DNA of 28,018 bases from the IMG/VR virus record IMGVR_UViG_3300030380_002902, positions 13,468 to 41,485 of that record; one strand, written 5' to 3'. This document shows positions 4,300 to 27,600 of this stretch, one piece after another. Position numbers and translations under genes: made by a program. Numbering within the stretch: the first letter of the stretch is position 1; each line of letters starts with the position of its first letter. The notes beneath the pieces were generated by a model. That model did no database searches, had not been told where the DNA came from, and saw nothing but the letters and a program-made list of their open reading frames with translations. Source of the stretch: a virus.

Positions 4300-5924
4300 T
4301 AGAACTCTCCTTTTTCTACAGGGAAGGGGTTAGTTTCATCTTCAGCGTCTGGTATCGCCAACTCAGTCATTCGGCCTGTGTACTTGTCGTACTCAAGGCT
4401 ACAAGCAATACCTGTCTCCCCCGTCCATCTGTTTTTCAACACACGAACTTGAGTTACGTTTGCCATTTCTGGGTCTTGCTGGTCACGCTCACAGCCCAAC
4501 ACGATATCGGATAGTTGCCCGATACCCGCACTGCCTCTGAGTTGTGACAAGTTTGTTTGTGCGCCATTCTCGTGTCCCTTACCTTCGGGACGCTTCAAGT
4601 GACTTACGAGAACCAGACCAATCTTAACTTCCTCAACGAGAGCGCGGAGCTTCGTCATGGTGTTATCAATCATCCGCCGTTCATCACCATTCTCCATGCC
4701 ACTAACAACTATGCTAATGTGGTCAAGAACAATGAAGCCACAGCCACACCCGTTGGCTAGGTAGCGTATCTTGTCCATGAGGTTTTCACTTTCGGTTGAA
4801 CCCCAGTGGTCATAAAGATACACACGGCCTGTACCAAGGGTAGAGTCAAACGCTTCCTTCAGCTCCTCTTCCTTTGCGGTAGAGTTGCCAAGGTGCAAGG
4901 GTTTGTTCATAGCTATAGACATGAGGCCCAAGGAAGTACGTTTTACCGACTCCTCTAATGCTATGTAACCTATAGTCTCACCTTGTTGCAGAAGGAAGTG
5001 AGCAAACTCTCTACAGAGTTGGCTTTTCCCTATGCCGCTACCAGCGGTCACAGTTACGATTTCACCCTTGCGTATTCCAAGGGTTTTTTCGTTGAGTCCG
5101 TGGTAGGGATACTCATAGGACTGAGTGTTATCTTCTTTGGTAACAACATCCCACAGAGAATCCCCATTGATAATACCGTCAGGACGATAATCCTTGGCAT
5201 CGAACATGGCGTTGGTGATGTCCTTGGTCTTACCAGCTACCAACATCTCATTGGCATCCTTCAAGGGCAGATGTGCAATTTTGCACTTGCCTGACGGGAA
5301 CAAAGTGGCACAGTCCTTTGCGGCCTTTCGACCAGCCTCGTCTGAGTCAAACATCAGAACAACGCTGTCAAACTTGTTAAGCCACTCAAGTGATTTCTGT
5401 AGGGCTTTCTTTGCCCCCTGTGAGCCGTTAGGGACGGAACACACAGGCCATGATGTACCTAAGACCTGACTGACCGAAAGGGCATCAATCTCTCCTTCGG
5501 TAACAACTACCCGCTTACCACCATCACGCCATAACCACTGTCCGTAAAGGCCAATGTCATTGGTGTCACCGATAAACAAGAAGTCTTTATTTGGAAACCG
5601 CAACTTCTGGGCAACTAAATCACCATCACGGTTTTTGTAGTTAGCTATCTGAACAGGCTTACCTTTGAACTTGCCTACCTGATAACCCCATTTCTTTACG
5701 GTTTCCGCATTAATGTTTCGCTTGGCTAGTGCTTTGTATGAGCCGCCTTTGACTAAATCATGGTTCACTTTACTCTGTCTCCGCTCTGCCTGATTACTGT
5801 CTCCGTAGTGACCACACACAAAGCACCAACCATGCCCATCATCATAGACTGCAAAGCCATCTGATGACGGACAAGCTGGGCAAGGTATGTGAGCTACGAA
5901 ATTGCTTCCGTTGCGTTCCACCAT
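4299..5924 (-). CDS. Primase-helicase, T7 gp4-like
   Basis: A 541-residue bifunctional enzyme that unwinds DNA and makes primers at the phage fork. Domains in order: zinc-binding CPAC...CFVC (Cys15, 18, 34, 37); TOPRIM primase core with VTEGEIDAL (E143) and MFDSDEAG (D193, D195); RecA-like hexameric helicase with Walker A GSGIGKS (residues 295-301), Walker B-like FIVLDHISIV, then LVSHLKRPEGKGHENG and LSQLRGSAGIGQLSD with the sensor and arginine-finger region. The length is close to T7 gp4A (566). The ATG at 5924 lies 31 nt inside the end of the amidase gene, with GAGGGA immediately upstream. The zinc motif starts at residue 15 as in T7, which supports this start. Confidence 0.96.
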   Translation of the reverse strand: MVERNGSNFVAHIPCPACPSSDGFAVYDDGHGWCFVCGHYGDSNQAERRQSKVNHDLVKGGSYKALAKRNINAETVKKWGYQVGKFKGKPVQIANYKNRDGDLVAQKLRFPNKDFLFIGDTNDIGLYGQWLWRDGGKRVVVTEGEIDALSVSQVLGTSWPVCSVPNGSQGAKKALQKSLEWLNKFDSVVLMFDSDEAGRKAAKDCATLFPSGKCKIAHLPLKDANEMLVAGKTKDITNAMFDAKDYRPDGIINGDSLWDVVTKEDNTQSYEYPYHGLNEKTLGIRKGEIVTVTAGSGIGKSQLCREFAHFLLQQGETIGYIALEESVKRTSLGLMSIAMNKPLHLGNSTAKEEELKEAFDSTLGTGRVYLYDHWGSTESENLMDKIRYLANGCGCGFIVLDHISIVVSGMENGDERRMIDNTMTKLRALVEEVKIGLVLVSHLKRPEGKGHENGAQTNLSQLRGSAGIGQLSDIVLGCERDQQDPEMANVTQVRVLKNRWTGETGIACSLEYDKYTGRMTELAIPDAEDETNPFPVEKGEF

Positions 5925-7286: not shown

Positions 7287-7427
7287 TTATTCTGTCTCCT
7301 TATGGTTAACCATGGTTAAGTCAATACCCGCTTCGATAAGTCGGGCTGTTAAATCCACTGGGACTGCGAGGTCACGGCGAATTAAAATCTTGTAAAATAC
7401 AAGAAGAGCTTCGGTATGTTTTTCCAT
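7287..7427 (-). CDS. Small 46-residue protein between RNA polymerase and SSB genes
   Basis: A short ORF from ATG 7427 to TAA 7287-7289 that ends 2 bp before the SSB ATG. The product starts MEKHTEALLVFYKI and continues with RRDLAVPVDLTARLIEAG, amphipathic and basic/acidic mixed, with no known domain. Near its C-terminus, DLTMVNH is encoded by a copy of the palindrome. The predicted phage promoter would start transcription 3 nt before the ATG, so from that transcript it would be almost leaderless; readthrough from the RNA polymerase gene would give a normal leader. A small gene at the T7 gp2 position (host RNA polymerase inhibitor) is expected in this group, but there is no sequence support for that role. 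Confidence 0.5.
   Translation of the reverse strand: MEKHTEALLVFYKILIRRDLAVPVDLTARLIEAGIDLTMVNHKETE
7305..7320. promoter_or_regulatory. Palindromic operator-like site upstream of SSB
   Basis: GTTAACCATGGTTAAG: the TTAACC-NN-GGTTAA core is intact, with centre AT and one end base changed. It lies about 20 bp upstream of the SSB start and about 110 bp downstream of the phage-type promoter at 7430. A regulator bound here could block transcription into the replication genes. Confidence 0.5.
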
Positions 7428-7429
7428 AA

Positions 7430-7447
7430 CTATAATGTCCATAAATG
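7430..7447 (-). promoter_or_regulatory. Phage RNA polymerase promoter (SP6/T7-like) before the SSB module
   Basis: The minus strand reads CATTTATGGACATTATAG, ending at the expected +1 G (7430). It shares ATGGACATTATAG exactly with the site upstream of the RNA polymerase gene and differs from the site at 16603 by one base in that stretch. The layout (AT-rich stretch, specificity block, TATAG) is that of single-subunit phage RNA polymerase promoters. It lies in the gap between the RNA polymerase stop and the first replication genes. Confidence 0.7.
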
Positions 7448-7471: not shown

Positions 7472-9898
7472 CTAAGCAAAAAAGTATTTAGACTCCTTCA
7501 CGAGAGAAAGGTCTAAGCTACCTTTTTGCGGTGGTGTGGGTACTTCATCTACGACTTCAAGAGCGAAGCCTTTGAACTGTTCAAGGACATCATTCTGTTC
7601 GTACATACGAACAAAAGAGGCCCGTGTCTGCTCGTACAATTTAGGTACAAGTGAGGCGTGTACACCATAACTATCGTGTACCATAGCAAAGTCAGTAATG
7701 CCCACACCCACACAGTTGTTAATAGTAAACGTCATAGCCGCACTATCCAGCGAATGGATAAAGTTAGGGCTTGCTCCGTTGACTGCGCGGCGGCGGTCTG
7801 ACTTCATGTAGTTTTGCTCACGAACCTGTGGCTTGATAAGGCTATTATCAATGTGGGTTGTGATGCGTCTGCTTCGTGTCTCTGGATACATCTGATGCAC
7901 CAGAAAGCCTGTTGGTGTTTCCCAGATAACTGGAAGGTTCTCCGCCGATATAATACTGGATATCTCTTGTAGCCAATCCATAACTGTACGAGCGGCGGTA
8001 ATCACCTTTGAGATACAAGCCCACACAATGTCAGCAAGATAGTGACTAGGTTCAAACAGGTCATGTCCCCAAGGCGATAAAGTCCCTTCTTCAATACGGT
8101 CAGTTATGTAATCCTCAATATACTGACGGGTACTGTATATTTTGCCGCCGTATGGGACTACCATCACAGGCCGCTTGGTACACTTTCTAGTGACACCAAA
8201 CTCAAGCCACTCACGAGCCATGGCATCATGCGACTTACGACTCTCCAGAACCTGATTAACCTCATCAGCTACATCCTGATAAATGTCACGAGGTATCTCA
8301 CACGGTACAAGGTTGGTTGACTCACCGCCCTTCATGTCGAGATTAATAGCACTCAGGTGCTGTAGCCCGTTGTTAGACCCATCAAGGCTCACTGGTAAAT
8401 GTGAGATACGACCAACAGCCGCTTTTCTCCACTCAAAGCAAAACGCAAGAAACATCCATGGGTCACTGGCCTTTGTCCACCACGTATTCTCGTAGGGGTC
8501 TTCCGCACAGGCTTCGATAGCATCGGTATTCTTACTCACCCAATAAGCGCGGTCATCAAATGATACCTTGTCTTCACCGAAACAGTTAGCACCATGCACA
8601 CCCAGCCAGTATATACCCTCTGAGGTCAGCGGTACGCCGTTGGCAAAGGTAAGTAACGCTTTGGCATAGTCTGGCCCTTGTGGACTAAGAAAGCTACTGA
8701 CAACGTACTTACGCCCTCTGAAGTCGTTCTGCCAGACAAAGTAGAACTCATCAAAGTCCTTGAACTTGTCTGCCATAGACATGGTACGAACTAGCTGTAG
8801 ACGTTTGCTGGTTAGCCTAGAGTTGGACTGATGCACCCTTGCGGCGGCGTGTTTCCATTCCTTGAACATAACCCGTTCAGCCTCAGTCATCTCTGACTTA
8901 GGTTTATTAGGGAACTGCGTGGGCGGTAGAGGCAGAGGGTCACGCTGTGGTAAACCACCCCAGCTATCGCCAGACTCCCACACTGTCTTCATCACTTCTA
9001 GTATAGGCTTATTGACCGCCCACTTGGTCTTTTGTAGAGCGTTGATAGCCGTATACTCTTCTGGCATCTCGTGATGCTCCATCTCCTCAAGGTAACGGCG
9101 GTTCACCGTCTTGATGAGCGGTAGAGGACGAATGTGTCTCGTGTGATACCCACCGTCAGTAGGAGAAGTCCAATCACGCGGTGGTATAACGCATGGCATA
9201 TAACGAGGCGCGAGTATCTCACCACGAGCGTTAATTCTATCAATCCACTCCATAGTCTTTTCGGTGGGTGTAAGATACAACACTCGCTTGGTACGACCAA
9301 ACGTGTGGGTAGTTAACTCCACAAGACCTGTGGACTGAATGATAAGGTCAACCAGTTTACAGCCGAGGTGCATCTTCTCTTGCTTACTCCACGGCTCGTG
9401 GTCAATCAGGGCTTTCTTGTTCATCGTGTGGATGATGGCGTAGCGGCGGAAGTAACGATTGCTGGTACGCTTGTTGACATCCTTTTGGATACGTCTGAAC
9501 CAGTGTGGTTCTTGCTCTTCAAACATGGAGAACTTGAACTGGTCTTCTAGCATACCAGCTATACCCATAGCACACTTGGTTAGCGTTTGGTTTTTGGACA
9601 CAGAGTCTATAACACTCTTCAGCGACAGGTAGGCGGCAACTTCGGGGTCAAGAAGGGATAGCAGATGCCCAGCAGACGATAGCCTACCAGCCTTGCCTGT
9701 AAAGGCATCGTCAAGAAACTCGTCAATACACTTGGTAACAGAGTCCACTGACTTCTTCATTGCGAGTATACCATACAGAGTCGTTGACTCGTTGGTTTGC
9801 TCAATAGCTTTACTGACCTCAGACCTGTAGTAATCAATACCCTTGGTCTGCATATCAGCTTCTAACTTTCTCTGAATTTCTAAGAGATGTTGGTTCAT
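7472..9898 (-). CDS. Single-subunit phage RNA polymerase (T7 gp1-like)
   Basis: An 808-residue DNA-directed RNA polymerase that would transcribe the replication and structural genes. Visible conserved blocks: NDFRGRKYVVSSFLSPQG (about residue 391); SLDGSNNGLQHLSA with catalytic D506; TKRPVMVVPYGGKIYS with K575 and Y583 of the O helix; PNFIHSLDSAAM (about residue 711); and MVHDSYGVH with H741 and catalytic D742. The C-terminus KYFFA resembles the aromatic foot of T7 RNAP. T7 RNAP has 883 residues, so the difference lies mainly outside the core. AGGAG lies 6 nt before the ATG. A phage-type promoter 40 bp upstream implies autoregulated expression after initial synthesis by host polymerase. Confidence 0.97.
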   Translation of the reverse strand: MNQHLLEIQRKLEADMQTKGIDYYRSEVSKAIEQTNESTTLYGILAMKKSVDSVTKCIDEFLDDAFTGKAGRLSSAGHLLSLLDPEVAAYLSLKSVIDSVSKNQTLTKCAMGIAGMLEDQFKFSMFEEQEPHWFRRIQKDVNKRTSNRYFRRYAIIHTMNKKALIDHEPWSKQEKMHLGCKLVDLIIQSTGLVELTTHTFGRTKRVLYLTPTEKTMEWIDRINARGEILAPRYMPCVIPPRDWTSPTDGGYHTRHIRPLPLIKTVNRRYLEEMEHHEMPEEYTAINALQKTKWAVNKPILEVMKTVWESGDSWGGLPQRDPLPLPPTQFPNKPKSEMTEAERVMFKEWKHAAARVHQSNSRLTSKRLQLVRTMSMADKFKDFDEFYFVWQNDFRGRKYVVSSFLSPQGPDYAKALLTFANGVPLTSEGIYWLGVHGANCFGEDKVSFDDRAYWVSKNTDAIEACAEDPYENTWWTKASDPWMFLAFCFEWRKAAVGRISHLPVSLDGSNNGLQHLSAINLDMKGGESTNLVPCEIPRDIYQDVADEVNQVLESRKSHDAMAREWLEFGVTRKCTKRPVMVVPYGGKIYSTRQYIEDYITDRIEEGTLSPWGHDLFEPSHYLADIVWACISKVITAARTVMDWLQEISSIISAENLPVIWETPTGFLVHQMYPETRSRRITTHIDNSLIKPQVREQNYMKSDRRRAVNGASPNFIHSLDSAAMTFTINNCVGVGITDFAMVHDSYGVHASLVPKLYEQTRASFVRMYEQNDVLEQFKGFALEVVDEVPTPPQKGSLDLSLVKESKYFFA

Positions 9899-9937: not shown

Positions 9938-9955
9938 CTATAATGTCCATTAATT
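9938..9955 (-). promoter_or_regulatory. Phage RNA polymerase promoter upstream of the RNA polymerase gene
   Basis: The minus strand reads AATTAATGGACATTATAG with +1 expected at 9938, 40 nt before the RNA polymerase ATG. It is nearly identical to the sites at 7430 and 16603 and resembles the SP6 promoter (ATTTAGGTGACACTATAG). A self-promoter for the RNA polymerase gene would give positive feedback. Confidence 0.7.
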
Positions 9956-10121: not shown

Positions 10122-10210
10122 TGGTACGAGCGGGGGGACTCGAACCCCCACGCCATTGAAAAGGCTCAGGATTTTAAGTCCTGTGTGTCTACCAATTCCA
10201 CCACGCTCGC
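10122..10210 (-). tRNA. tRNA-Leu (anticodon UAA), probable integration core
   Basis: A complete class II tRNA fold on the minus strand: acceptor GCGAGCG pairing with CGCTCGT (first pair G-U), D arm GTG/CAC with GAATTGGTAGA loop, anticodon stem CAGGA/TCCTG with loop CTTAAAA (anticodon TAA), a variable arm GCC/GGC, T arm GGGGG-TTCGAGT-CCCCC, discriminator A and an encoded CCA (10124-10122). It lies 38 bp from the integrase stop. Phages of this type usually keep only the 3' part of the host tRNA as att core. Here the whole gene looks functional, so it can both restore a host gene and supply UUA/UUG decoding. Confidence 0.93.
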
Positions 10211-10248: not shown

Positions 10249-11238
10249 TTACTCCGTAGATAAATTATCTAATACACTTATGGCATTCACCATATTCGTA
10301 TCATTTATTTTAGCATATCTCATTGTTATTTGTATAGTTTTATGACCCATCAGTTTCTGTACCACCTGTATTGGCACGTTCCTCTGAACAAGCCTTGACG
10401 CAAACGTATGACGTAGTGTGTGCCAGACAACATCATTACCCAGACCACAGTGATGCTTTACTCTCTCAAAGGCAGAACGAATGAACTCCTTCTGTGGAAA
10501 CAGAAAGGGGTCACCTGTTCTATTCTCAAGTACGGCTCTGGCTCTCTTTGTAAGTGGTATAATTCTGGGAAGCTGTGCCTTGCTCTCCCACACACCCAGA
10601 CCTTGAGCCGTTATGTCAGCCTTTTTGATACGCATAAGCTCACTTCTTCTGACACCAGTATCAACAGCAACAACCATGGCATCGTGCAAATTAACATACC
10701 CCATATCTGCCGCTAATCCTGTCATCATCACCATCTCTTCTTCCGTCAACCAGCGCAGACGGTGTTCCCCCTCTGGCTGTCTATGGATGAAGACATGGTG
10801 ACTCATTTTGTTATACTCCCTCGCAGTCCGAAGAATGCGAGAGAGATTCATAAGTACACGATTGATTGTTGAACCCGACAACCGTGTACCCTTGAGGTGT
10901 AGGATAAAGTCATCCACTCTCTCTGTTGTTATATCTGTGAGTGGACAGTTGTTACCAAAATATTCAAGGTTCTTTCTCATGTTGATGAGGTGGGTTTTCT
11001 CTGACTTAGATTTTTCCCACCGCATAACAAAAGTACGCTCTGCGGCATCCTTCAGTGTCCACCCGTTAACCTTGGCTGTTGAGTTAACCGTGGTTAACGG
11101 GCGTCCAATCTTTAGGGATTGCTTGGCTTCTTTTTCCCACGCCAATGCGTCCTCGTACAAGTCAAAGTTTCTTCTTGCACGTTTACCGTTGGCAAATACA
11201 TCAACTTGCCAACCTTTTCCTCGTTGCCGTACCGTCAT
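10249..11238 (-). CDS. int: Tyrosine site-specific integrase
   Basis: A 329-residue tyrosine recombinase. The N-terminal arm/core-binding part (residues 1-150) includes an AP2-like beta segment (GKGWQVDVFANGKRARRNF). The catalytic domain shows TGVRRSEL (R197), a Lys near residue 220, HTLRHTFAS (H273, R276), LMGHK (H299) and the nucleophile region MRYAKI (Y308). GGAGG precedes the ATG at 11238, and the start overlaps the stop of the MarR-like gene (ATGA), so the two are translationally coupled. An exact palindromic site at codons 47-52 encodes LTTVN. The gene ends beside the tRNA-Leu attP, consistent with integration into the host tRNA gene. No excisionase was recognised. Confidence 0.95.
   Translation of the reverse strand: MTVRQRGKGWQVDVFANGKRARRNFDLYEDALAWEKEAKQSLKIGRPLTTVNSTAKVNGWTLKDAAERTFVMRWEKSKSEKTHLINMRKNLEYFGNNCPLTDITTERVDDFILHLKGTRLSGSTINRVLMNLSRILRTAREYNKMSHHVFIHRQPEGEHRLRWLTEEEMVMMTGLAADMGYVNLHDAMVVAVDTGVRRSELMRIKKADITAQGLGVWESKAQLPRIIPLTKRARAVLENRTGDPFLFPQKEFIRSAFERVKHHCGLGNDVVWHTLRHTFASRLVQRNVPIQVVQKLMGHKTIQITMRYAKINDTNMVNAISVLDNLSTE
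11083..11098. promoter_or_regulatory. Palindromic operator-like site inside the integrase gene
   Basis: An exact GTTAACCGTGGTTAAC lies about 140-155 bp inside the integrase coding region and encodes L-T-T-V-N in the linker after the N-terminal domain. A separate GTTAACC half-site lies about 18 bp further into the gene (near 11065). It could let the regulator limit its own operon. Confidence 0.55.
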
Positions 11239-11561
11239 TGAGCCTCCAATAGTTTTTTCATACGCACCCCTTGTGCGTTGAGTGAGACAAGTTTTCTTGA
11301 CCTGTCCATTGGGTCTTCCAGCGCAACTACCAAGTCGTGACCGCTTCGCCGATGGCGTGACCAATCAGTAAATGCCGCAACATTGCGGCTGGCAGAGGCA
11401 TGGGAAAAACCAAGGGCATCACTAATGTCCTTGATTGTTAACCCATCTGGGTTGTTCTCATGCTGGCAGATGTACAGAAATGTCTGCGCCTGCTGAATGG
11501 GCATATTAGGATTTAAATTCCTAAACTGCTCCATACACATGAGTAGGTCTTTAATGTTCAT
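11235..11561 (-). CDS. MarR-like winged helix-turn-helix regulator, candidate lysogeny repressor
   Basis: A 108-residue DNA-binding protein. Helix-turn-helix: LTIKDISDALGFSHASASRNVAAF (about residues 41-64). The wing and following segment LVVALEDPMDRSRKLVSLNAQG has the D-x-x-x-R-x-x-x-V-x-L-x-x-x-G pattern typical of MarR wings. MarR proteins act as dimers on palindromes of about 16-20 bp, which suits the TTAACC-NN-GGTTAA sites spread through the window. That link is inference from co-occurrence. AAGGAG lies about 9 nt before the ATG, and the 3' end overlaps the integrase start by 4 nt. A similar regulator lies beside the integrase in related marine podoviruses. It is shorter than most MarR proteins (about 140), with reduced dimerisation helices. 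Confidence 0.8.
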   Translation of the reverse strand: MNIKDLLMCMEQFRNLNPNMPIQQAQTFLYICQHENNPDGLTIKDISDALGFSHASASRNVAAFTDWSRHRRSGHDLVVALEDPMDRSRKLVSLNAQGVRMKKLLEAQ

Positions 11562-12224: not shown

Positions 12225-12512
12225 TCAGTATGAGCGTCTAAAGGAAATGGTCTGATTGTAGATGACCTCATCAGCGTACATCCCAACCATGTAATCACTG
12301 CGCCAGTTGTAGACGGTAGGCAGTGAAACATTGAAATGTTTTGCAAGGTCAGCAAAACGAATCTTGTGGACAAGAGCGTGTTCAATAATACGCTTCTGTT
12401 CAGCCTTGCTGTACTTGGACAGATGACCTTTTGAAACCTTCCTACGCACTTCAGGAAGCATTGTGGATTTAAACGGCTCTGGCTGTGCCAGTATTGGATT
12501 AACGTAGTTCAT
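12225..12512 (-). CDS. Small helix-turn-helix DNA-binding protein
   Basis: A 95-residue protein. Its second half contains SKAEQKRIIEHALVHKIRFADLAKHFNVSLPTVYNWRSDYM, a helix-turn-helix of the transposase/Xre-like type with recognition helix near SLPTVYNWR. The N-terminal 30 residues are polar and Pro rich. It is the first gene of the unit that ends with MarR-like regulator and integrase. AGGAAAGGA lies about 9 nt before the ATG, and an operator-like palindrome lies 29 bp upstream of the start. It could be a second lysis-lysogeny regulator or an integrase directionality factor. The sequence only supports DNA binding. Confidence 0.7.
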   Translation of the reverse strand: MNYVNPILAQPEPFKSTMLPEVRRKVSKGHLSKYSKAEQKRIIEHALVHKIRFADLAKHFNVSLPTVYNWRSDYMVGMYADEVIYNQTISFRRSY

Positions 12513-12540: not shown

Positions 12541-12556
12541 GTTAACCGTGGTTAAT
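12541..12556. promoter_or_regulatory. Palindromic operator-like site before the HTH/integrase unit
   Basis: GTTAACCGTGGTTAAT, one end base different from the perfect palindrome. It is about 52-67 bp downstream of the expected start site of the promoter at 12615-12643 and just upstream of the HTH gene's ribosome site. That is the same arrangement as at three other early promoters. Confidence 0.6.
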
Positions 12557-12614
12557 TATTGGAAGTGAGTAGTTTCAAAGACCGTCATACTCAGGACAGT
12601 AATCCAGTATGTAT

Positions 12615-12654
12615 ATTATGCACCTTGGTAAGATATGGGTCAAGTCTGGTTAAC
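12615..12654 (-). promoter_or_regulatory. Sigma70-like promoter with operator half-site (HTH-MarR-int unit)
   Basis: The minus strand shows -35 TTGACC (12643-12638), a 17 bp spacer and -10 CATAAT (12620-12615). GTTAACC of the operator lies immediately upstream of the -35 (GTTAACCAGACTTGAC). The same TTAACCAGACTTG string occurs at the promoter near 16178. The promoter overlaps the last codons of the preceding gene. Confidence 0.6.
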
Positions 12655-12927
12655 TGGCTTGTTATCATTCTCAACTATGTCGAACTCAAAGGTGTATTGG
12701 TTACGAAATAGTTTCTCATCACCCGCAAGAAGTAATGCCATAATGTGTGTCAACTCCTCTGCATCAGAGAAGCGAACAGGCTCACCAACCATAGCATCAT
12801 TGCCATGACCACTCATAAGAGCAACCTCACAGGTATACATTCCCTCGTTTGCATCATAGCCATTGAACGGCTCTTGAAAAAAGGACAGCCAGTATTCGCC
12901 CCTCAACTTTACAGCGAAGTTAGCCAT
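12640..12927 (-). CDS. Hypothetical early protein
   Basis: A 95-residue protein starting at ATG 12927, which overlaps the stop of the preceding gene (TAATG). This start is preferred because the in-frame extension upstream lies wholly inside the other gene. The sequence begins MANFAVKLRGEYWLSFF and is acidic in its second half (EFDIVENDN). No domain is recognised. It shares a two-gene unit with the 184-residue protein and is probably co-translated with it. Its 3' end overlaps the -35 region of the next promoter. Confidence 0.65.
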   Translation of the reverse strand: MANFAVKLRGEYWLSFFQEPFNGYDANEGMYTCEVALMSGHGNDAMVGEPVRFSDAEELTHIMALLLAGDEKLFRNQYTFEFDIVENDNKPVNQT

Positions 12928-13481
12928 TACGCAGTCTCCCCATTCCAAAGGCCAAGTAGACGTTCGATATCGCCCCGAACTGACTCGCGTCTGGTAGACG
13001 GGCGGTACTGCTTGTCGTGTAGCCAGTACGGAGAGGAAGTGCCACGCACCCACTTGGCAAACGATAGTTTCTCGCCAATGTAGTAGCGGCGGTATGCACT
13101 CACGGTATCAATACCCTTGTATTGTTCAGGCATACACTGAGGTGGCGCGGAAGGTTCGCCCTTATGACAGGACGGAAATACACCCAGATGCTCACGCAAC
13201 TGGTCACAAGCATGTATCTTGTCAAAGCGATGCTCATACTCGTACAAGAGGTCAAGAAAAAGATGGTATGTCCACTCGTATGCATACAACGATGAACCAA
13301 CCCACTGAGTAGATGGGTGCTTGATGTAGGCGGGTTTGTATATCCCATCGTGACCACAGCCATTTACGTGTTGAGCGGTACACAACATCTGTGCAGTCTC
13401 AAGAACCATCTTTGGTATGTGCTTGTCACACAGAAACTGAGCCGCAAGGTTCGGCTGTTCATCAAGGTAAAATATATTCAT
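12927..13481 (-). CDS. Conserved phage protein of the MNIFYLDxxPxxAAxxxCDKHxxKMxLE type
   Basis: A 184-residue protein. The N-terminus MNIFYLDEQPNLAAQFLCDK followed by HIPKMVLETAQML is a signature I recognise from many phage hypothetical proteins. Further conserved-looking parts are HPSTQWVGSSLYAYEWTYHL and YRRYYIGEK. It is mostly helical, rich in His, Cys and Trp. No enzymatic assignment is secure. The frame is open 19 codons further upstream, but the ATG at 13481 is chosen because the family signature starts there and AAAGGA lies about 11 nt before it. It is the first gene after the promoter near 13605 and its operator at 13538. Confidence 0.75.
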   Translation of the reverse strand: MNIFYLDEQPNLAAQFLCDKHIPKMVLETAQMLCTAQHVNGCGHDGIYKPAYIKHPSTQWVGSSLYAYEWTYHLFLDLLYEYEHRFDKIHACDQLREHLGVFPSCHKGEPSAPPQCMPEQYKGIDTVSAYRRYYIGEKLSFAKWVRGTSSPYWLHDKQYRPSTRRESVRGDIERLLGLWNGETA

Positions 13482-13524
13482 ATCGAGATGTCCTTTCGGA
13501 TAATTGCGAGAAGGCAGAAAAAGA

Positions 13525-13566
13525 GGGGTGACTTTCAATTAACCGTGGTTAACTAATCGCCACCCC
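13525..13566 (-). promoter_or_regulatory. Operator palindrome nested in a terminator-like hairpin
   Basis: The operator copy ATTAACCGTGGTTAAC (13538-13553) is enclosed by a second inverted repeat, GGGGTG/CACCCC (13561-13566 and 13525-13530). On the minus strand the outer stem is followed by TCTTTTTC. A transcript could fold into an outer stem with the operator as inner hairpin followed by a U tract, like an attenuator. As DNA, the site lies 45-60 bp downstream of the expected start of the promoter at 13603. Confidence 0.5.
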
Positions 13567-13602
13567 AAAGGCTTCTCAGGGAGGAAACTATAATGTCTGT
13601 AT

Positions 13603-13642
13603 ATCTTGCCAGACTGTAAGGGTTATGTCCAACGTGGTTAAC
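13603..13642 (-). promoter_or_regulatory. Sigma70-like promoter with operator half-site
   Basis: On the minus strand, GTTAACCACG runs straight into -35 TTGGAC (13632-13627), then an 18 bp spacer and -10 CAAGAT (13608-13603), with ATATAC alongside. It aligns base for base with the promoter at 15077-15116. About 10 bp downstream, GACATTATAGTT (13598-13587) resembles the phage RNA polymerase promoter core, but the specificity block upstream of it differs. Confidence 0.5.
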
Positions 13643-13730
13643 TTAGAGCCACAGTGATAAACAAGGGTAGGAGAACAAACCAAACAACGCAAAAAAGAAG
13701 TTCGGCTACAATGTCTAAAATTTTAGTCAT
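13638..13730 (-). CDS. Tiny single-TM protein (30 residues)
   Basis: It begins MTKILDIVAELLFCVV and continues as a hydrophobic helix (WFVLLPLFITVAL), ending in Ser. The ATG at 13730 overlaps the end of the upstream gene by 8 nt, and the stop TAA lies inside the GTTAACC operator half-site of the next promoter. It is a predicted single-pass membrane peptide. It is one of three such peptides placed near the ends of early units in this window. The function is unknown. Confidence 0.5.
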   Translation of the reverse strand: MTKILDIVAELLFCVVWFVLLPLFITVALS

Positions 13731-13974
13731 AATCACTCTCCCAGTTGGCCTCAAAAGACGGGTGTCTTTTCTTTTCGGGAACGTCCTTGTCTACTTCTGC
13801 CAACAGTTGAAAGTTCGTAAATTCATCAAGACCCTCGCGCCAATCGGATTCATCATAGTCAGTCCATTCTTCTGAACGGTCACGGTTGATTTCTTCCAAT
13901 ATTTCGGGGAGTGTCCAAAGGCTTGTTTCACCATCAACAATATTCAGCAAAACATATATTTTATTTTGGGTCAT
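13723..13974 (-). CDS. Hypothetical acidic early protein
   Basis: An 83-residue protein from ATG 13974. A GTG three codons upstream is possible, but AGGTGAG sits just before the ATG. It is strongly acidic (ILEEINRDRSEEWTDYDESD, C-terminal WESDYD), with no known domain. Small acidic early phage proteins sometimes mimic DNA or bind host enzymes, but nothing specific supports that here. The start overlaps the 3' end of the 50-residue gene, and the stop overlaps the start of the 30-residue membrane peptide. Confidence 0.65.
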   Translation of the reverse strand: MTQNKIYVLLNIVDGETSLWTLPEILEEINRDRSEEWTDYDESDWREGLDEFTNFQLLAEVDKDVPEKKRHPSFEANWESDYD

Positions 13975-14113
13975 GGAACTCACCTAGCTTGTCAGTCAGT
14001 AACATAATTTCAGCGAAATGCTCCCCTGCGGTCACCCTATCGCCACGGACTGCGGCATCAGCTAACATCGTCAGGTGATGACGGATGCCCTCTTTGATAT
14101 CAAGAATTGTCAT
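13961..14113 (-). CDS. Small early protein (50 residues)
   Basis: The ORF starts at ATG 14113 with AGAGGA about 8 nt upstream. The product begins MTILDIKEGIRHHLTMLADA and ends KLGEFHDPK. It is predicted to be mostly helical, soluble and amphipathic, with no known family. It overlaps both neighbours by about 14 nt, a tight packing typical of real early phage genes. The function is unknown. Confidence 0.55.
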   Translation of the reverse strand: MTILDIKEGIRHHLTMLADAAVRGDRVTAGEHFAEIMLLTDKLGEFHDPK

Positions 14114-14264
14114 TGGTTTTTTCCTCTACAACTTCATGGTGAACGGATATTAATTCTTTTTCATCACACACTTGGTCATCAGCCTTTTCTTGTGCGGATT
14201 CCCAACTGTCTGCCTCAAGATAAAACACATAGGTTTCATCACGTAATATTTTGTACTTAGGCAT
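14100..14264 (-). CDS. Small early protein (54 residues)
   Basis: The ORF starts at ATG 14264 with AAGGGAG about 8 nt upstream. The product begins MPKYKILRDETYVFYLEADS, then WESAQEKADDQVCDEKEL, and is acidic. The YKI-beta start followed by a helix with AxxxA and acidic residues resembles the small alpha/beta proteins often found in phage early regions, but no family can be named. It lies 20 bp after the GP88-like gene and overlaps the next gene by 14 nt. Confidence 0.55.
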   Translation of the reverse strand: MPKYKILRDETYVFYLEADSWESAQEKADDQVCDEKELISVHHEVVEEKTNDNS

Positions 14265-14283
14265 CTTCTTTTCTCCCTTGCTT

Positions 14284-15018
14284 CTAATGGGTTAAGAATA
14301 AAACTTGGCGTGTCTGTGCAGACCAGCAGAACGTGCAAGTAGCGCACGACTCGGCCTTGCCAGTTTGTTCTGGGCATACGGCAGACTTGCCGCTTTCTTC
14401 TTCGGCTACCTCAGTTGAGTTAGCGGAAAAGACTTCATCAGGGGCATTGCTGAACCGCACGGAAAATCGAGTGCCAAACTGTTCACGAACAAGTGCCAAG
14501 GCAACACCAATAGGGTCATCAGGGCTGTAACCAGTGAAGCCCCAAACCGCAAGGTTAGCAAAACGATGCAAAAGAGCCGCCCACTTCTGGACATACGGTA
14601 CGGAATAGAAGTCACCCAGAACATGAAGCCGCACGATAACGCCCTTATAAATAGAACAATGCTCGGCAATCTCGCGCTCTATGGCATCCTCAAGAGCCTT
14701 GCCAGCAGGGAAGCGATGAGCAAAGGCCATATTGTTGCCGTAGCAGTCATCCCAGTGGTAGCAGTAACGTGGACACGTTGCACGTTCTTCAAGGGTAAGC
14801 GTGAAGATGGCATAACCAGCAAACTCACCCTTGCGAACCAGCGGTAACTTGTCTTTGGATATCTTCTTGTTACGCGATACCTTCAGAACCCCAGTAGTGC
14901 AGTCCTCAACAGTACGTCTGGCATTCGGGTACATGGTAAACGCTGGCTTGTTTTTGTCAGCCTTGCGTATCTTTGAGTTAACCGTGGTTAACTGTTGTGG
15001 GCTAGTATCTAGCGGCAT
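14284..15018 (-). CDS. GP88-like cysteine-rich phage protein
   Basis: A 244-residue protein. The region GYAIFTLTLEERATCPRYC, YHWDDCYGNNMAFAHRF, RLHVLGDFYSVPYVQKWAAL, GFTGYSPDDPIG and the C-terminal CPEQTGKAESCATCTFCW match the general plan of the phage GP88 family as I know it, with Cys clusters at both ends that look able to bind metal or an Fe-S cluster. The molecular function is not established. The frame is open 25 codons further upstream, but ATG 15018 has GGAAGGA about 9 nt before it. A full palindromic site lies at codons 10-14 (QLTTVNS). It is the first gene of the unit driven from near 15080. Confidence 0.65.
   Translation of the reverse strand: MPLDTSPQQLTTVNSKIRKADKNKPAFTMYPNARRTVEDCTTGVLKVSRNKKISKDKLPLVRKGEFAGYAIFTLTLEERATCPRYCYHWDDCYGNNMAFAHRFPAGKALEDAIEREIAEHCSIYKGVIVRLHVLGDFYSVPYVQKWAALLHRFANLAVWGFTGYSPDDPIGVALALVREQFGTRFSVRFSNAPDEVFSANSTEVAEEESGKSAVCPEQTGKAESCATCTFCWSAQTRQVLFLTH
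14977..14992. promoter_or_regulatory. Palindromic operator-like site in the first codons of the GP88-like gene
   Basis: An exact GTTAACCGTGGTTAAC, about 80-95 bp downstream of the expected start site of the promoter at 15077. Because the leader is short, the site falls inside the coding sequence, where it encodes LTTVN. Confidence 0.6.
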
Positions 15019-15076
15019 TGTGGTATTCCTTCCATGATTTTTGAGAAACGGTGGGTATACACGACCCACTATGTAT

Positions 15077-15116
15077 ATATTACCAACGTGCAAGGTATAC
15101 GTCCAGCGTGGTTAAC
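15077..15116 (-). promoter_or_regulatory. Sigma70-like promoter with operator half-site (GP88-like unit)
   Basis: On the minus strand, GTTAACCACG leads into -35 CTGGAC (15106-15101), an 18 bp spacer and -10 TAATAT (15082-15077). It is the clear counterpart of the promoter at 13603-13642. It lies just downstream of the terminator at 15166, so it starts a new unit. Confidence 0.6.
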
Positions 15117-15165
15117 TGACGGGATACGGTATGATAGGATGATAGGATGACAAAAAAAATTGATG

Positions 15166-15195
15166 AAAAAAAAGCCCCCACAATTTCTTGTGAGG
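15166..15195 (-). terminator. Rho-independent terminator of the first early unit
   Basis: The minus strand reads CCTCACAA-GAAA-TTGTGGGG, an 8 bp stem with one G-T pair and a GNRA-type loop, followed by GGC and eight Ts; a second run of eight Ts follows shortly after. It lies 16 bp past the 28-residue membrane peptide and before the next promoter. Confidence 0.85.
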
Positions 15196-15210
15196 ACTCT
15201 TGAGATTTTA

Positions 15211-15297
15211 TTATTTCAGACTGAACATCATCCAGACCCAAAAAGCTATGACAGCAAGTCCAAAACCACAATAAAAGGCAATTACATATTCTAGCAT
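15211..15297 (-). CDS. Tiny single-TM protein (28 residues)
   Basis: The ORF starts 1 nt after the stop of the 252-residue gene and ends just before the terminator. The product begins MLEYVIAFYCGFGLAVIAF and ends MMFSLK, one hydrophobic helix with a basic C-terminus. It is predicted as a single-pass inner-membrane peptide whose translation is coupled to the upstream gene. The function is unknown. Its position as the last gene before a strong terminator argues that it is a real gene. Confidence 0.55.
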   Translation of the reverse strand: MLEYVIAFYCGFGLAVIAFWVWMMFSLK

Positions 15298-15298
15298 A

Positions 15299-16057
15299 TT
15301 AGGCCGCCTTTCTTTTCTTTGCATTAGACTTAACACTGGCCTTTGCAGATTGCGCGGCCTGCCGCTTATCAGCTTCAGCCTTAGTGAGCGGCTTCTGCTT
15401 CGTAGCTTCCTCTTCAGCCTTTGTAGCTTCCTCTTCAGCCTTTACCCTTGCCAGTTCCGCCTTAATCTGAGCGGCCTCTTTTTCGCGCCGTATGTCTTCA
15501 CGTTGTTCGATTATCTTTGAAACATAGTCATTGATATAATTGAACGCATCTACGTCTACGTGCTGGGCGTCATCCTTGCTGAGTTCCTTGCGATACTTTT
15601 TGATTAAGTCTAACAATTCATCCGCCTTTTTTTCGCGTGGATTAACTTCAGCGCGTAGTTCTTTGAAGCTATCAAAAGACGATACAGGCTTATCAAGGCC
15701 ACCTTCACATTCAGCACGTTCTGCCTTTTGACACTGGGCGCGATATGTGGACAGCGTGCCTTTAGGCCATGGTGCGCCCCTGTTGTTCTTTTTGCCGTTG
15801 CTGTCAGGGTTACCAGCTTCATCTTGATAATAATCGTGACCTGACAAATAAGCCAACGTGTTGAAGATTTGCGCGGCGGACTGCTCAGTTTCTTTCTGAA
15901 TAGTCACAATCTCAGAAAACAGCGTATCGGCTACCGTGCCAATTTGACCAGAAACACCCTCAGCCTTTTCCTGTAATTCAATGATGTCTTGAACGGCCTC
16001 ATGTGCCGCGCCAAATTGAGCGTCCAGAGCTTCAGTATTTTTCAGTAATGTAGTCAT
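15299..16057 (-). CDS. First early gene: hypothetical coiled-coil protein with Lys/Ala-rich tail
   Basis: A 252-residue protein with no named domain. The N-terminal 70 residues are helical (AVQDIIELQEKAEG). A middle segment with RGAPWPKGTLSTYRAQCQKA may be a small DNA- or RNA-binding unit. From about residue 180 the protein is a charged coiled coil ending in a basic KSNAKKRKAA tail. A perfect 21 bp tandem duplication gives the repeat KAEEEAT twice. AAGGA lies twice in the 15 nt before the ATG. It is the first gene after the proposed genome-end region, where T7-like phages place host-takeover genes. Confidence 0.7.
   Translation of the reverse strand: MTTLLKNTEALDAQFGAAHEAVQDIIELQEKAEGVSGQIGTVADTLFSEIVTIQKETEQSAAQIFNTLAYLSGHDYYQDEAGNPDSNGKKNNRGAPWPKGTLSTYRAQCQKAERAECEGGLDKPVSSFDSFKELRAEVNPREKKADELLDLIKKYRKELSKDDAQHVDVDAFNYINDYVSKIIEQREDIRREKEAAQIKAELARVKAEEEATKAEEEATKQKPLTKAEADKRQAAQSAKASVKSNAKKRKAA
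15402..15443. repeat. Perfect 21 bp tandem duplication
   Basis: The 21-mer GTAGCTTCCTCTTCAGCCTT plus a final T occurs twice without mismatch at 15402-15422 and 15423-15443. It keeps the reading frame and doubles a KAEEEAT heptad in the coiled-coil tail. Lack of divergence suggests a recent slippage duplication. Confidence 0.9.
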
Positions 16058-16080
16058 ATCCTTAGTCCTTTTTTCTATGG

Positions 16081-16096
16081 GTTAACCGTGGTTAAT
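16081..16096. promoter_or_regulatory. Palindromic operator-like site downstream of the first early promoter
   Basis: GTTAACCGTGGTTAAT, 24 bp upstream of the first early gene and about 45-60 bp downstream of the expected start from the promoter at 16145-16178. A GTGTG...CACAC inverted repeat lies directly beside it (16102-16120). Confidence 0.6.
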
Positions 16097-16144
16097 TATG
16101 GTGTGTCATTTTTGTCACACTCGTTATCAAGGGGCGAACCCCTG

Positions 16145-16189
16145 ATTATACATTAAAGGAATACTTGCCAGAATGCAAGTCTGGTTAAT
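16145..16189 (-). promoter_or_regulatory. First early sigma70-like promoter with operator half-site
   Basis: On the minus strand, ATTAACCAGACTTG is followed by two overlapping readings: -35 TTGCAT (16178-16173) with 17 bp to TAATGT, or -35 CTGGCA (16172-16167) with 16 bp to a perfect TATAAT (16150-16145). The second has the better -10. The half-site and following bases are the same as at the 12615-12654 promoter. It would drive the 252-residue gene on entry. Confidence 0.55.
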
Positions 16190-16234
16190 CAATTGGGCTA
16201 AATAAAAAAAACAGATGATAAAACAAACAAACCA

Positions 16235-16250
16235 ATTAACCACGGTTAAC
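16235..16250. promoter_or_regulatory. Palindromic operator-like site, opposite orientation
   Basis: ATTAACCACGGTTAAC on the plus strand. This is the only full copy whose 2 bp centre reads AC instead of GT or AT, so it is inverted relative to the others. It lies about 57 bp upstream of the first early promoter's -35. Confidence 0.6.
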
Positions 16251-16276
16251 CAGTGAGGGCTTGTCGTTTCCGTGGA

Positions 16277-16292
16277 ATTAACCGTGGTTAAC
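16277..16292. promoter_or_regulatory. Palindromic operator-like site, upstream copy
   Basis: ATTAACCGTGGTTAAC, 26 bp from the inverted copy at 16235-16250. The two could be bound cooperatively upstream of the first early promoter. Confidence 0.6.
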
Positions 16293-16602: not shown

Positions 16603-16620
16603 CTATAGTGTCCATTAAAT
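16603..16620 (-). promoter_or_regulatory. Phage RNA polymerase promoter at the terminase stop codon (phi-OR-like)
   Basis: The minus strand reads ATTTAATGGACACTATAG followed by GAGGGGGG; the TAA inside it is the large terminase stop. It differs from the SP6 promoter ATTTAGGTGACACTATAG at only four positions. T7 has promoter phi-OR at the same place, after gene 19, next to the right end and used as a secondary origin, which supports a role in replication or packaging here. Confidence 0.7.
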
Positions 16621-24634: not shown

Positions 24635-27600
24635 TTACCTATTGGTTTCTAGTAGGCGTGTCCCAGCCTTCTGGTTTATTTTCCTGTTGCGATACTCCAT
24701 GTAGAAATCTGGATATTTAGCAAACAACTGTTGTCTTGCCGCTCTCTTGTAGGAAGACAGTACTTTGCTGATTGCTTTGATTTCTGTTGTCTGGAACTCA
24801 CCATCATATATTCTATTCTCATCACCCATGCGATACTGAGGGTTTTTCATTACCTTCTGTAACGCTTGCATAAGTGTAAGACCACCGATACGAACAGTCC
24901 CTGTAAATTGGTTATAGTCAGACAACTGTTCGCTAGTTAGCTCAATCTTATTGATACGCCGAGATGGGCCTTTGAACGGGTAGTTCAACGCCATCAACTC
25001 AGCCCCAACAAACTCTGTGGTTTTGTCAGGAACAATAGGAAAGCCAGTAGAGAACGCATCAGGGTTTCTAATTGCTTCACCAGTTAACCAGTTAAACTTC
25101 TTGGGAAGATTATCGACCATCATTGGGATGCGGCGTTGAAACTTATCTCCAAGTCCTACGGCTTCCCGTAACTCTGGATAATTATCTCCAGCAACAGCCT
25201 GAACACCTTCTACAACTTGCAGAGGAGCGGCTGGTACAAAGCTGGTGGCAAGACCGTAACCAATGTTAGTAACCTTGAATATCTGGTTAGGGTCATCTGT
25301 TTGTAACGCGGAGAATAAATTAGAGATACCCTGTAGGTATGCTTTATCTTGAAGCGTTGTGGACATCGCAAACACAGCAGTAGCAAAATAATCTTCTACC
25401 TCTGGTTGGGTGAGGTGCTTACTCATGTCAAACCCGTTAGCCATCAAACCAACAGGCATGAATATAGGGTCAAAGCGATTATATGAAACCCACTTGTCTC
25501 CTATACGAATACTGTATGGTTGATTACCAGCGTTTCTCCAGAGTCTGTTTTGGTCTGGCAACGCTGGCCCTGCACCTGTAATTTTCCCTTCCATCGCGTA
25601 CATAAGTGCGCCACCAAGGAATAAAGTACCGAGAGAGGTACGCCCAATCATCTGTGCCTTTTCAGCGGGAGTGCCATACTTCAGAGTATCGTTATACCGT
25701 TTTGACGCAAAGTTTACCAAAGGGGTTCTCTGTGCCGCACGGACAATCAAGTTGGTTGGTGTACGAATAAACGGTAGGAAAATCTGAAACGAAGGATGCC
25801 GTTGGACAAACTGTTGAAGCCACAAAGCCTTTGAGCCATCCAGTAGGTCTTCAGTAAAAGTAATTTCACGAGAATACTGTATAGCACCCATGTCAGTTCC
25901 ACGGCCTGTGCCATCAAGTGAATCTGATATTCTCTTCAGCGCATATTCTTCTTGAGCCTTTGGGTCATTAGGATACTTCAGTTTAGCTTCATGCATACCA
26001 TCTGCAAACACTCTTGCACGATAGTTAATCTGTTTGAAGAACTCGTCTTCTGCTCCAAGTGCGCGGAGTGAACCACGAGTAATCTTACCGATAGTGTCCA
26101 GATTTCGACCAAGCAACGTATCCGACCTAATGCCTATGAAAGAGGAGTGAATTTTGTTTTGTACCTCATTCCCGTCCAGCTTAGTATTTGCTGGGTCAAG
26201 AAAGTTTCTCTCTGCTTTCAAAGATGCGTGTGCCATTTGAATAGAGTCCTTAAAGGTAGAACTCAAACCCATCAAATGATAATGAAAGTCATCTCTTATT
26301 TCACGAGCCGCCTTACCACCAATAAATGGTTGCATAATGTAAGACCCAGCAAATCTTTCCGCTGGTACTAAAATGGTTTCATTGATGCCCGATAGGGTAT
26401 TTGTAATATGTGTCTTGATGTTAAACAGAATCATGGAACGGAATAGTTCACCCAGAGAGGCAAAGGCTTTGAATCCAGCACCTCTGTTCATGTTTGCCGC
26501 CGCTCTGCTAACCTTTGATAAGTCACCACCAGATGCACGTAGGACTGTTCTAAATCGGTCTAAAGCCTCCCTACCACCTACGTCCTTCACAGACTCATCA
26601 AGAGCTTTGTAATCAAAGATTTTTTCTTGGCGCATACGTAAAGCACGGCCCATCCCTGTTTCAATCCCCTGAACACCAGCAAGTAACCGTGTAAAGTTCT
26701 CCAGTTCTGCCTGTGCTTTAACTTGGACGTTAGGGTCTACATCATACTTTGGGTTTTCAAATAAGCGATACATACGCTCACCTGACTCCTTCAGCATTGC
26801 CTCAACCGCGTGTACAACATAAGTAGCTTCTTGAACAGACTCAGCGTGTCTATATGCTATATTCATAATTTCTCTGGAAGTAAGACCCGTCATTTCGGAA
26901 GCACGTATAGCGGCCTCTTCGAAAACGTCTTCTATACCCTGTTTACCACGGACTTTATCCAGCATCGGCTTTGCGGCATTAACAGTATCTTGAAGAACTG
27001 AAGCTACGTCATCAACGTAGTCAACAATAAGAACATCACCTTTTTTAGTGCGGTTGAAAAACTTTACGTTCTCTGTTTCGCTGAATACTTCAGTAATATC
27101 TCTTGGTTCTTTAATACCAGCTAACAGAGTTTTTACCTGTGCCGCATTAGACAGCTTTGGCTGTTTTGGTTTTTGTACGCCAGACTTAGATGGTGTTATT
27201 GGAATTTCTTTAGGTAAAGATTTACCAGCCAGCTTGTCATCAATAGCTTCTGCTAGTTGCTTCTTGGTTGTCTTAGTAGACATAGGAATGCCAAGAGCTT
27301 TTGCTTTTTGCACAAGCGTTGCCTTGTCATCCCGAAGAAGAACATCTTGCCGCGACCTAGCAGATTTAAAGGCCGCTCTGTCCAAATCGTCAGCCATGAC
27401 ATCTATGGTGTTGGAAAGGTCTACCTTTGAGACATCATCACCAGCTTCCTCAAGAGCCTTTTGCTCCTTTTCTGCCGCCTTGACTTTCTTTTTGTGTTCG
27501 TTGCTTTTGGCTACACGTTTCTTTGTTTCCTTTGACTTAACCGTGGTTAACTCTGCGGTCACTTCTTTTTCTGTAGCTACAGGGTCTGCGCCCTGACGCA

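Follow-up and report, generated by a model that had tools for sequence, protein, structure and literature searches.

Temperate T7-like phages are common in the ocean and have now been found in Pseudomonas. The stretch of DNA analyzed here, referred to as the window, is 28,018 nt of the 41,485-bp IMG/VR record IMGVR_UViG_3300030380_002902 (positions 13,468 to 41,485); it carries a T7-type RNA polymerase (RNAP) gene, an integrase gene, a gene for a MarR-like protein, and repeated copies of the palindrome TTAACC-NN-GGTTAA, which are our subject. The closest described gene arrangement is that of phages LUZ100, Pasto, and HTVC019P, which share with the window the gene order MarR-like gene, integrase, RNAP and the same regulator family, with a tRNA-Leu nearby in LUZ100 and Pasto. 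The main text of the LUZ100 paper proposes, citing earlier work, that MarR represses the RNAP gene from sites on either side of the RNAP promoter; it does not use the terms "palindrom," "operator," or "superinfection," and it does not describe genome-wide operators (PMC10134795). An initial annotation of the window spoke of a lysogeny switch on a T7-type genome that normally has none, a view that is out of date since MarR-plus-integrase temperate T7-like phages have been published (PMC10134795). MarR-based lysogeny control in T7-like phages has been proposed before, but the dispersed, lineage-typed operator set appears to be new: the literature searched contained no dispersed, lineage-typed palindromic operators in T7-like phages, although earlier work by Boeckman and colleagues may describe some sites near the RNAP promoter.

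With respect to the sites themselves, the closest described system is the stoperators of Cluster A mycobacteriophages such as L5 and Bxb1, in which 20 to 30 repressor sites are spread over the genome, some in early promoters and most not, with a motif that varies between subclusters and tracks the repressor (PMC6550527). The window resembles them in having dispersed sites at promoters and inside genes, for which we infer a repressor role. Stoperators are described as 13-bp, asymmetric sites in one orientation that are read by a monomeric repressor (PMC6550527; PMC9283540), whereas the sites here are 15- to 16-bp perfect palindromes without that one-orientation asymmetry and have a MarR-type candidate reader; the elongation block shown for Cluster A would, here, be a predicted property. 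Because Cluster A sites are asymmetric, the present set may work like a stoperator system but falls outside the Cluster A type. The half-site also has a bacterial counterpart: the MarR-family regulators ZitR and AdcR bind TTAACYRGTTAA, a palindrome with the same TTAAC half-site, and ZitR sites overlap the -35 and -10 boxes (PMC6372160). They differ in being bacterial zinc regulators with a 2-bp centre, few sites, and no genome-wide dispersal.

The palindrome occurs in 10 exact copies in the window and in 12 in the 41.5-kb genome, where essentially none would be expected by chance, and a whole-genome control with the reversed pattern gave no matches. When up to two mismatches were allowed, the window contained 11 matches against 1.3 expected, a number reached in none of 100 shuffles. 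A database query with the palindrome alone returned mostly unrelated single matches. The exact copies in the window, all candidate operators, are as follows.

16278 to 16291, no strand: palindrome TTAACCGTGGTTAA, 5' of the first early promoter
16236 to 16249, no strand: palindrome TTAACCACGGTTAA, 5' of the first early promoter
16082 to 16095, no strand: palindrome 3' of early promoter 1, ahead of the gene at 15299 to 16057
14978 to 14991, no strand: palindrome 3' of early promoter 2, close to the start of a GP88-like gene (14284 to 15033)
13539 to 13552, no strand: palindrome 3' of early promoter 3
12542 to 12555, no strand: palindrome 3' of early promoter 4, preceding the helix-turn-helix (HTH)-to-MarR-to-integrase gene run
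11084 to 11097, no strand: palindrome within the integrase gene; lineages B and C have equivalent integrase sites with their own sequence
7306 to 7319, no strand: palindrome at the RNAP/SSB junction, where lineages A to F have junction sites; LUZ100 and CRP-361 carry sites directly behind RNAP
3792 to 3805, no strand: palindrome within the DNA polymerase gene
27537 to 27550, no strand: palindrome within the large internal virion protein gene

The initial annotation had reported only the copies downstream of the four early promoters, 4 of the window's 10, with cores placed one base too early; the six added here lie 5' of the first early promoter (two), at the RNAP/SSB junction, and in the integrase, polymerase, and virion genes, so that several are intragenic. 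Its central observation, that the four early promoters share one architecture of half-site and downstream palindrome, was borne out by exact matching, by the shuffles, and by the strand of the half-sites, of which there is one per early promoter.

16183 to 16189, minus strand: half-site ATTAACC at early promoter 1, with candidate -35 TTGCAT at 16173 to 16178
15110 to 15116, minus strand: half-site GTTAACC at early promoter 2, followed by CTGGAC and then TAATAT; retained in the related contig G001
13636 to 13642, minus strand: half-site GTTAACC at early promoter 3, with TTGGAC (TTGACA in G001)
12648 to 12654, minus strand: half-site GTTAACC at early promoter 4, with TTGACC-17-CATAAT at 12643 to 12615

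The coding strand of the 3.8-kb early region holds no isolated half-sites beyond these four, against a chance expectation of about 0.55 (P ~0.002). Each RTTAACC half-site adjoins the -35, and the full palindrome starts approximately 43 to 80 bp past the expected transcription start, which keeps the downstream placement first described and corrects its distance of 45 to 95 bp. A TATA-like hexamer lies exactly 39 nt from the half-site start at 4/4 promoters; a better sigma70 fit puts the -10 at offset 34, with a spacing of 17 to 18 nt to TTGACC, TTGGAC, CTGGAC, or TTGCAT, and in this best reading the -35 begins three to four bases after the half-site. Of the four promoters called sigma70-like in the initial annotation, only the one near 12630 is near-canonical. 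The half-site is retained in close relatives (G001, 3/3; G015, 2/2), and a counterpart promoter in G001 reads TTGACA-17-CAATAT. Since the -35 of the two GTTAACCACG promoters occupies the place of the second half, GTTAACCACGTTTGAC in G001 can be read as one intact and one compromised half. On present sequence comparisons, the -35 half-site is specific to the window's lineage, with a similar arrangement at LUZ100 promoters P1 and P2, whereas the downstream palindrome is general.

Related contigs were gathered by searches with the RNAP and MarR proteins, and the palindromes of distant relatives were found without a prior assumption about their sequence. Close relatives carry the same palindrome; distant relatives lack it and carry a different repeated palindrome instead. 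Relatives down to 50% RNAP identity have as many as 16 palindromes on one contig, and these frequently occupy equivalent places. Besides the GTTAACC-NN- half-site type, the following palindromes, each with its own half-site type, were found across the lineages.

GTTAACT-N-AGTTAAC: lineages B and C
CGTTACA-N-TGTAACG: lineage E
GTTTACA-N-TGTAAAC: lineage H
TGTCTCA-N-TGAGACA: lineage F
TGTCGCA-N/NN-TGCGACA: F', contig G020

Positions that recur despite the changed sequence are the RNAP/SSB junction, the polymerase gene, the integrase gene, and the early promoters, so that the relatives do carry sites at their early promoters. The polymerase site falls in the same codon region in lineages A, B, C, and D and in one H phage, with different amino acids; the residues change to fit the DNA (ELTTVNWVDTL, KLTGLTIRDTL, RLTQLTLRDTL). 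Between G000 and G001, none of the 96 arm bases in eight homologous site pairs has changed, while their flanks are 83.6% identical (P ~3e-8). In F phages with 99% identical RNAPs, both arms have changed together at all four aligned sites. Arms that stay invariant amid diverging flanks, and a type that changes in concert over the whole genome, lead us to conclude that one trans-acting factor of changing specificity would read all sites of a genome, a conclusion that we regard as well supported by these comparisons. The "one repressor" of the initial annotation is upheld to the extent of a single factor, on account of the fixed arms and the concerted type change; that it represses is our proposal.

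The palindromes resemble T7 promoters in number and spread, and this, with the variation of their sequence by lineage, is also what might be expected if they were promoters of the phage T7-type RNAP. G016 and G020, however, have 99% identical RNAPs and different palindromes, palindromic promoters would fire both ways, and a separate, directional motif is present, TTTAATGGACA[TC]TAT[AC]G, which resembles the T7 CACTATAG core and occurs on both sides of the RNAP gene and at other places. Its TTTAATGGACA[TC]TATAG form is unchanged in lineages A, B, C, and E while the palindromes change. Given nearly identical RNAPs in phages whose palindromes differ, and the existence of a separate promoter-like motif, we reject this reading, which is the least credible of those considered; the TTTAATGGACA-type sites, listed below, are the likely phage RNAP promoters.

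16603 to 16613, minus strand: candidate phage RNAP promoter GGACACTATAG (T7-like CACTATAG)
9938 to 9948, minus strand: candidate phage RNAP promoter GGACATTATAG, 5' of the RNAP gene
7430 to 7440, minus strand: candidate phage RNAP promoter GGACATTATAG, directly after the RNAP gene
26089 to 26099, minus strand: weaker phage RNAP promoter candidate GGACACTATCG, within the virion protein gene

Many palindromes lie directly 5' of ribosome binding sites, and this, with the joint change of both arms, would also fit RNA hairpins that act in the messages, in processing or in control of translation. We consider this very improbable, as a centre of 1 to 2 nt would leave short, mostly AT-rich stems, the half-sites adjoin promoters and so lie outside the transcript, two further sites are located ahead of the first early promoter, and the LUZ100 sites at P1 and P2 are in the promoter spacer. 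In the middle and late region of lineage C the sites are regularly spaced at 3.3 to 5.9 kb (P ~7e-5), which, like the presence of sites in F phages without lysogeny genes, would suit a host factor or another DNA transaction (partition, packaging, or restriction) rather than transcription. The sites cluster at early promoters and the RNAP gene boundary, which argues against it, as does their change between phages with nearly identical core genes, and we rate it as improbable.

The isolated phages were scanned for palindromes against a composition-based expectation. Pseudomonas phage LUZ100 has seven sites of TATCCAC-NN-GTGGATA with at most two mismatches (0.07 expected, p ~1e-10), and Roseobacter phage CRP-361 has five sites of TTAGGT-NNN-ACCTAA with at most one mismatch (p ~3e-6), which flank its RNAP gene. 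In LUZ100, sites sit in the spacer of the mapped host promoters P1 and P2, and no palindrome was found at host promoter P3, which drives MarR and integrase. With up to three mismatches allowed, further LUZ100 sites directly follow the RNAP, primase, and capsid genes, fall within the polymerase gene, and precede the large terminase gene.

The genes of the window that bear on the identity of the reader are the following.

15299 to 16057, minus strand: first early gene, of an orphan family, helical with a lysine/alanine-rich tail; rival candidate reader
12225 to 12512, minus strand: HTH_23-type protein, second regulator candidate, disfavoured
11235 to 11561, minus strand: MarR-like repressor candidate, 108 aa, phrog_9665, winged helix-turn-helix (profile match and model)
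10249 to 11364, minus strand: tyrosine integrase, longest open reading frame
10122 to 10210, minus strand: tRNA-Leu(TAA), adjoining the integrase
7472 to 9898, minus strand: T7-type RNAP

As the 5' end of the integrase reading frame overlaps the MarR gene, the true integrase start is probably further in. The tRNA-Leu(TAA) is possibly a relic of an attachment site.

The MarR-like protein is the best candidate for the reader of the sites. It matches the MarR profiles (PF12802, 27.2 bits against a cut-off of 27; phrog_9665, 1.3e-26), although a search against PDB sequences gave no match, and its predicted structure (predicted local distance difference test score 87) finds MepR, MarR, SlyA, and AdcR as top Foldseek matches, DNA complexes included. 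Both the family's sequence profile and its winged helix-turn-helix fold with flanking helices are therefore recognizable in a protein that is short, at 108 aa. The gene lies in one cluster with the T7-type RNAP and the integrase, as in a temperate MarR-integrase module, and it is common to lineages A, B, C, E, and H and to LUZ100 and CRP-361, which holds for no other candidate regulator tested. A GTTnAC-type half-site is likewise common to the MarR-bearing lineages of the window's clade, whereas MarR-less lineage F has an unrelated TGTC half-site. Within the clade, 17/18 contigs with MarR have palindromes against 6/13 without it (Fisher 0.004), but this association is not independent evidence because the contigs are related and partial. 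The HTH_23-type gene was rejected as the reader: it was not found in lineages C, E, or H, in LUZ100, or in CRP-361, and F phages whose operators differ have almost the same version of its DNA-binding domain. Of the MarR-like and HTH proteins named as regulators in the initial annotation, the former thus stands as a candidate and the latter does not.

We therefore propose that the palindromes are probably the operators, at promoters and within genes, of a single dimeric repressor encoded by the phage, for which the MarR-like protein next to the integrase is the most likely identity. In a lysogen, a dimer of this protein would bind the strong half-site and a degenerate second half overlapping the -35 at the four early host-RNAP promoters, a perfect palindrome about 45 to 80 bp into each early transcript, and the palindromes that run through the middle and late genes. 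Binding at all three classes of site would stop initiation and act as a roadblock to elongation by both host RNAP and the phage T7-type RNAP, so that the prophage would be kept silent and immunity of a lineage-specific type conferred; since the operator sequence differs by lineage, it would set the immunity type. The earlier wording that one repressor controls all early units at once accords with the sites at the early promoters but is too narrow, as sites are also present in the integrase, polymerase, and structural genes.

Several results weigh against this proposal. Its main problem is lineage F (G016, G017, G020, and L095), in which profile searches found neither MarR nor integrase, other small genes occupy the place of that module, and up to 16 sites per contig are nevertheless kept and switched in concert between TGTCTCA and TGTCGCA. 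G007 lacks a MarR gene and yet keeps its sites. The -35 half-site is not conserved in lineages B and C; G020 (L098) mixes 15- and 16-bp sites, with one or two centre bases, which is unusual for one rigid dimer; and the scan found no clear repeated palindrome family in many MarR-bearing T7-like phages (pelagiphages, P-SSP7, Pasto, Lo5R7ANS, and G025). For F this leaves two options, a separate repressor of its own or a reader of the sites other than MarR.

G007 near 2635 (oriented) is about 0.5 kb shorter than L099 at 4746 to 5111, where related E phages carry MarR between the upstream early gene and the integrase, and G007 is possibly a natural repressor-minus derivative. Mycobacteriophage D29 is such a repressor-deleted natural derivative of a stoperator phage and is obligately lytic (PMC6550527). 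By this analogy, a recent D29-like loss of the repressor could account for G007, but not for the concerted change in F.

That lineage F has a different, unrecognized repressor, with MarR reading the sites in MarR-bearing lineages only, would extend our preferred explanation, and we hold it to be possible, if tentative. The TGTCTCA and TGTCGCA half-sites are unrelated to GTTnAC, and the MarR-integrase module is replaced there by other small genes. Those F early reading frames that were tested in Pfam, however, gave no DNA-binding family except the HTH_23-type gene, whose DNA-binding part hardly varies among F phages that differ in operator type; Cluster A repressors, though, can have an identical HTH and still differ in motif (PMC6550527). 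In an observation of its own, the early region of F phages includes a gene for a homologue of mycobacteriophage L5 gp82 (PF25735, 2e-38; L094:5329-5724).

Alternatively, a different phage protein could read the sites in all lineages, with MarR a bystander or a co-regulator, and this would account for the sites in MarR-less F and in G007. The leading candidate is the product of the first early gene, since these genes are strongly diverged (29% identical) between F and F', which have different operators, while RNAP, polymerase, and most other shared genes exceed 80%; a first early gene comparable in size and position, perhaps belonging to a single highly diverged family, is present in A, B, C, E, F, and H. 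First early genes are generally fast-varying, though, and their homology across A to H is weak (14 to 39%). Searching the phage collection with the lineage C protein gave no such gene, the A and B proteins had no match in palindrome-bearing LUZ100 or CRP-361, and the product, modelled as mostly helices, has no recognized DNA-binding domain and no fold match in PDB. We consider this alternative unlikely. Somewhat less doubtful, but still far from favoured, is the idea that dispersed palindromes serve this branch of T7-like phages as a general address system and persist after the lysogeny module is lost. On this view, because lineages with neither MarR nor integrase keep about 15 sites and re-type them collectively, a second, undescribed DNA-binding protein, for which the first early gene product is a possible candidate, would read the phage's own DNA across the genome, in lytic phages as well.

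Some further features of the sites were observed in relatives. In G016 and G017 (L121, L119), the single centre base is exchanged between A and T at 4/7 homologous sites, although the flanks are about 97% identical; inversion of the palindromes or rapid mutation of the centre would produce such a pattern. The outer flanks in lineage E (G007, G036, L099) are asymmetric, most sites having ACC on one side and an ATC-type sequence on the other, hinting at a preferred orientation. The late region of G037 (G037:35560-36600, L126) contains the 12-mer CAGGAGCCACAG seven times, probably as part of a repetitive gene.

The only genome match to the phage was the Rhodobiaceae metagenome-assembled genome (MAG) MED766 (L092/G015), in which a 33-kb contig aligns with the phage over nearly all its length. 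Rhodobiaceae were not accepted as the host, as binning of a phage-like contig is no proof, the MAG's own best tRNA-Leu matches share only 73 to 80% identity with the phage copy, and no attB was found. In a prophage search of 14 genomes of the MAG's family, the RNAP was present in one, on a phage contig, and no prophage was seen.

These results bear on how temperate T7-like phages silence a genome whose late genes need the phage's own RNA polymerase, and they provide candidate operator sequences from several lineages, among them those of LUZ100 and CRP-361, which are isolated phages. For LUZ100, our proposal predicts that P1 and P2 are repressed and P3 is not. If the MarR-type reading is true, a stoperator-like strategy would have arisen twice in evolution, in this second case from palindromic sites read by a MarR-type protein, and the different "password" of each lineage would amount to a set of immunity types that could be read from sequence.

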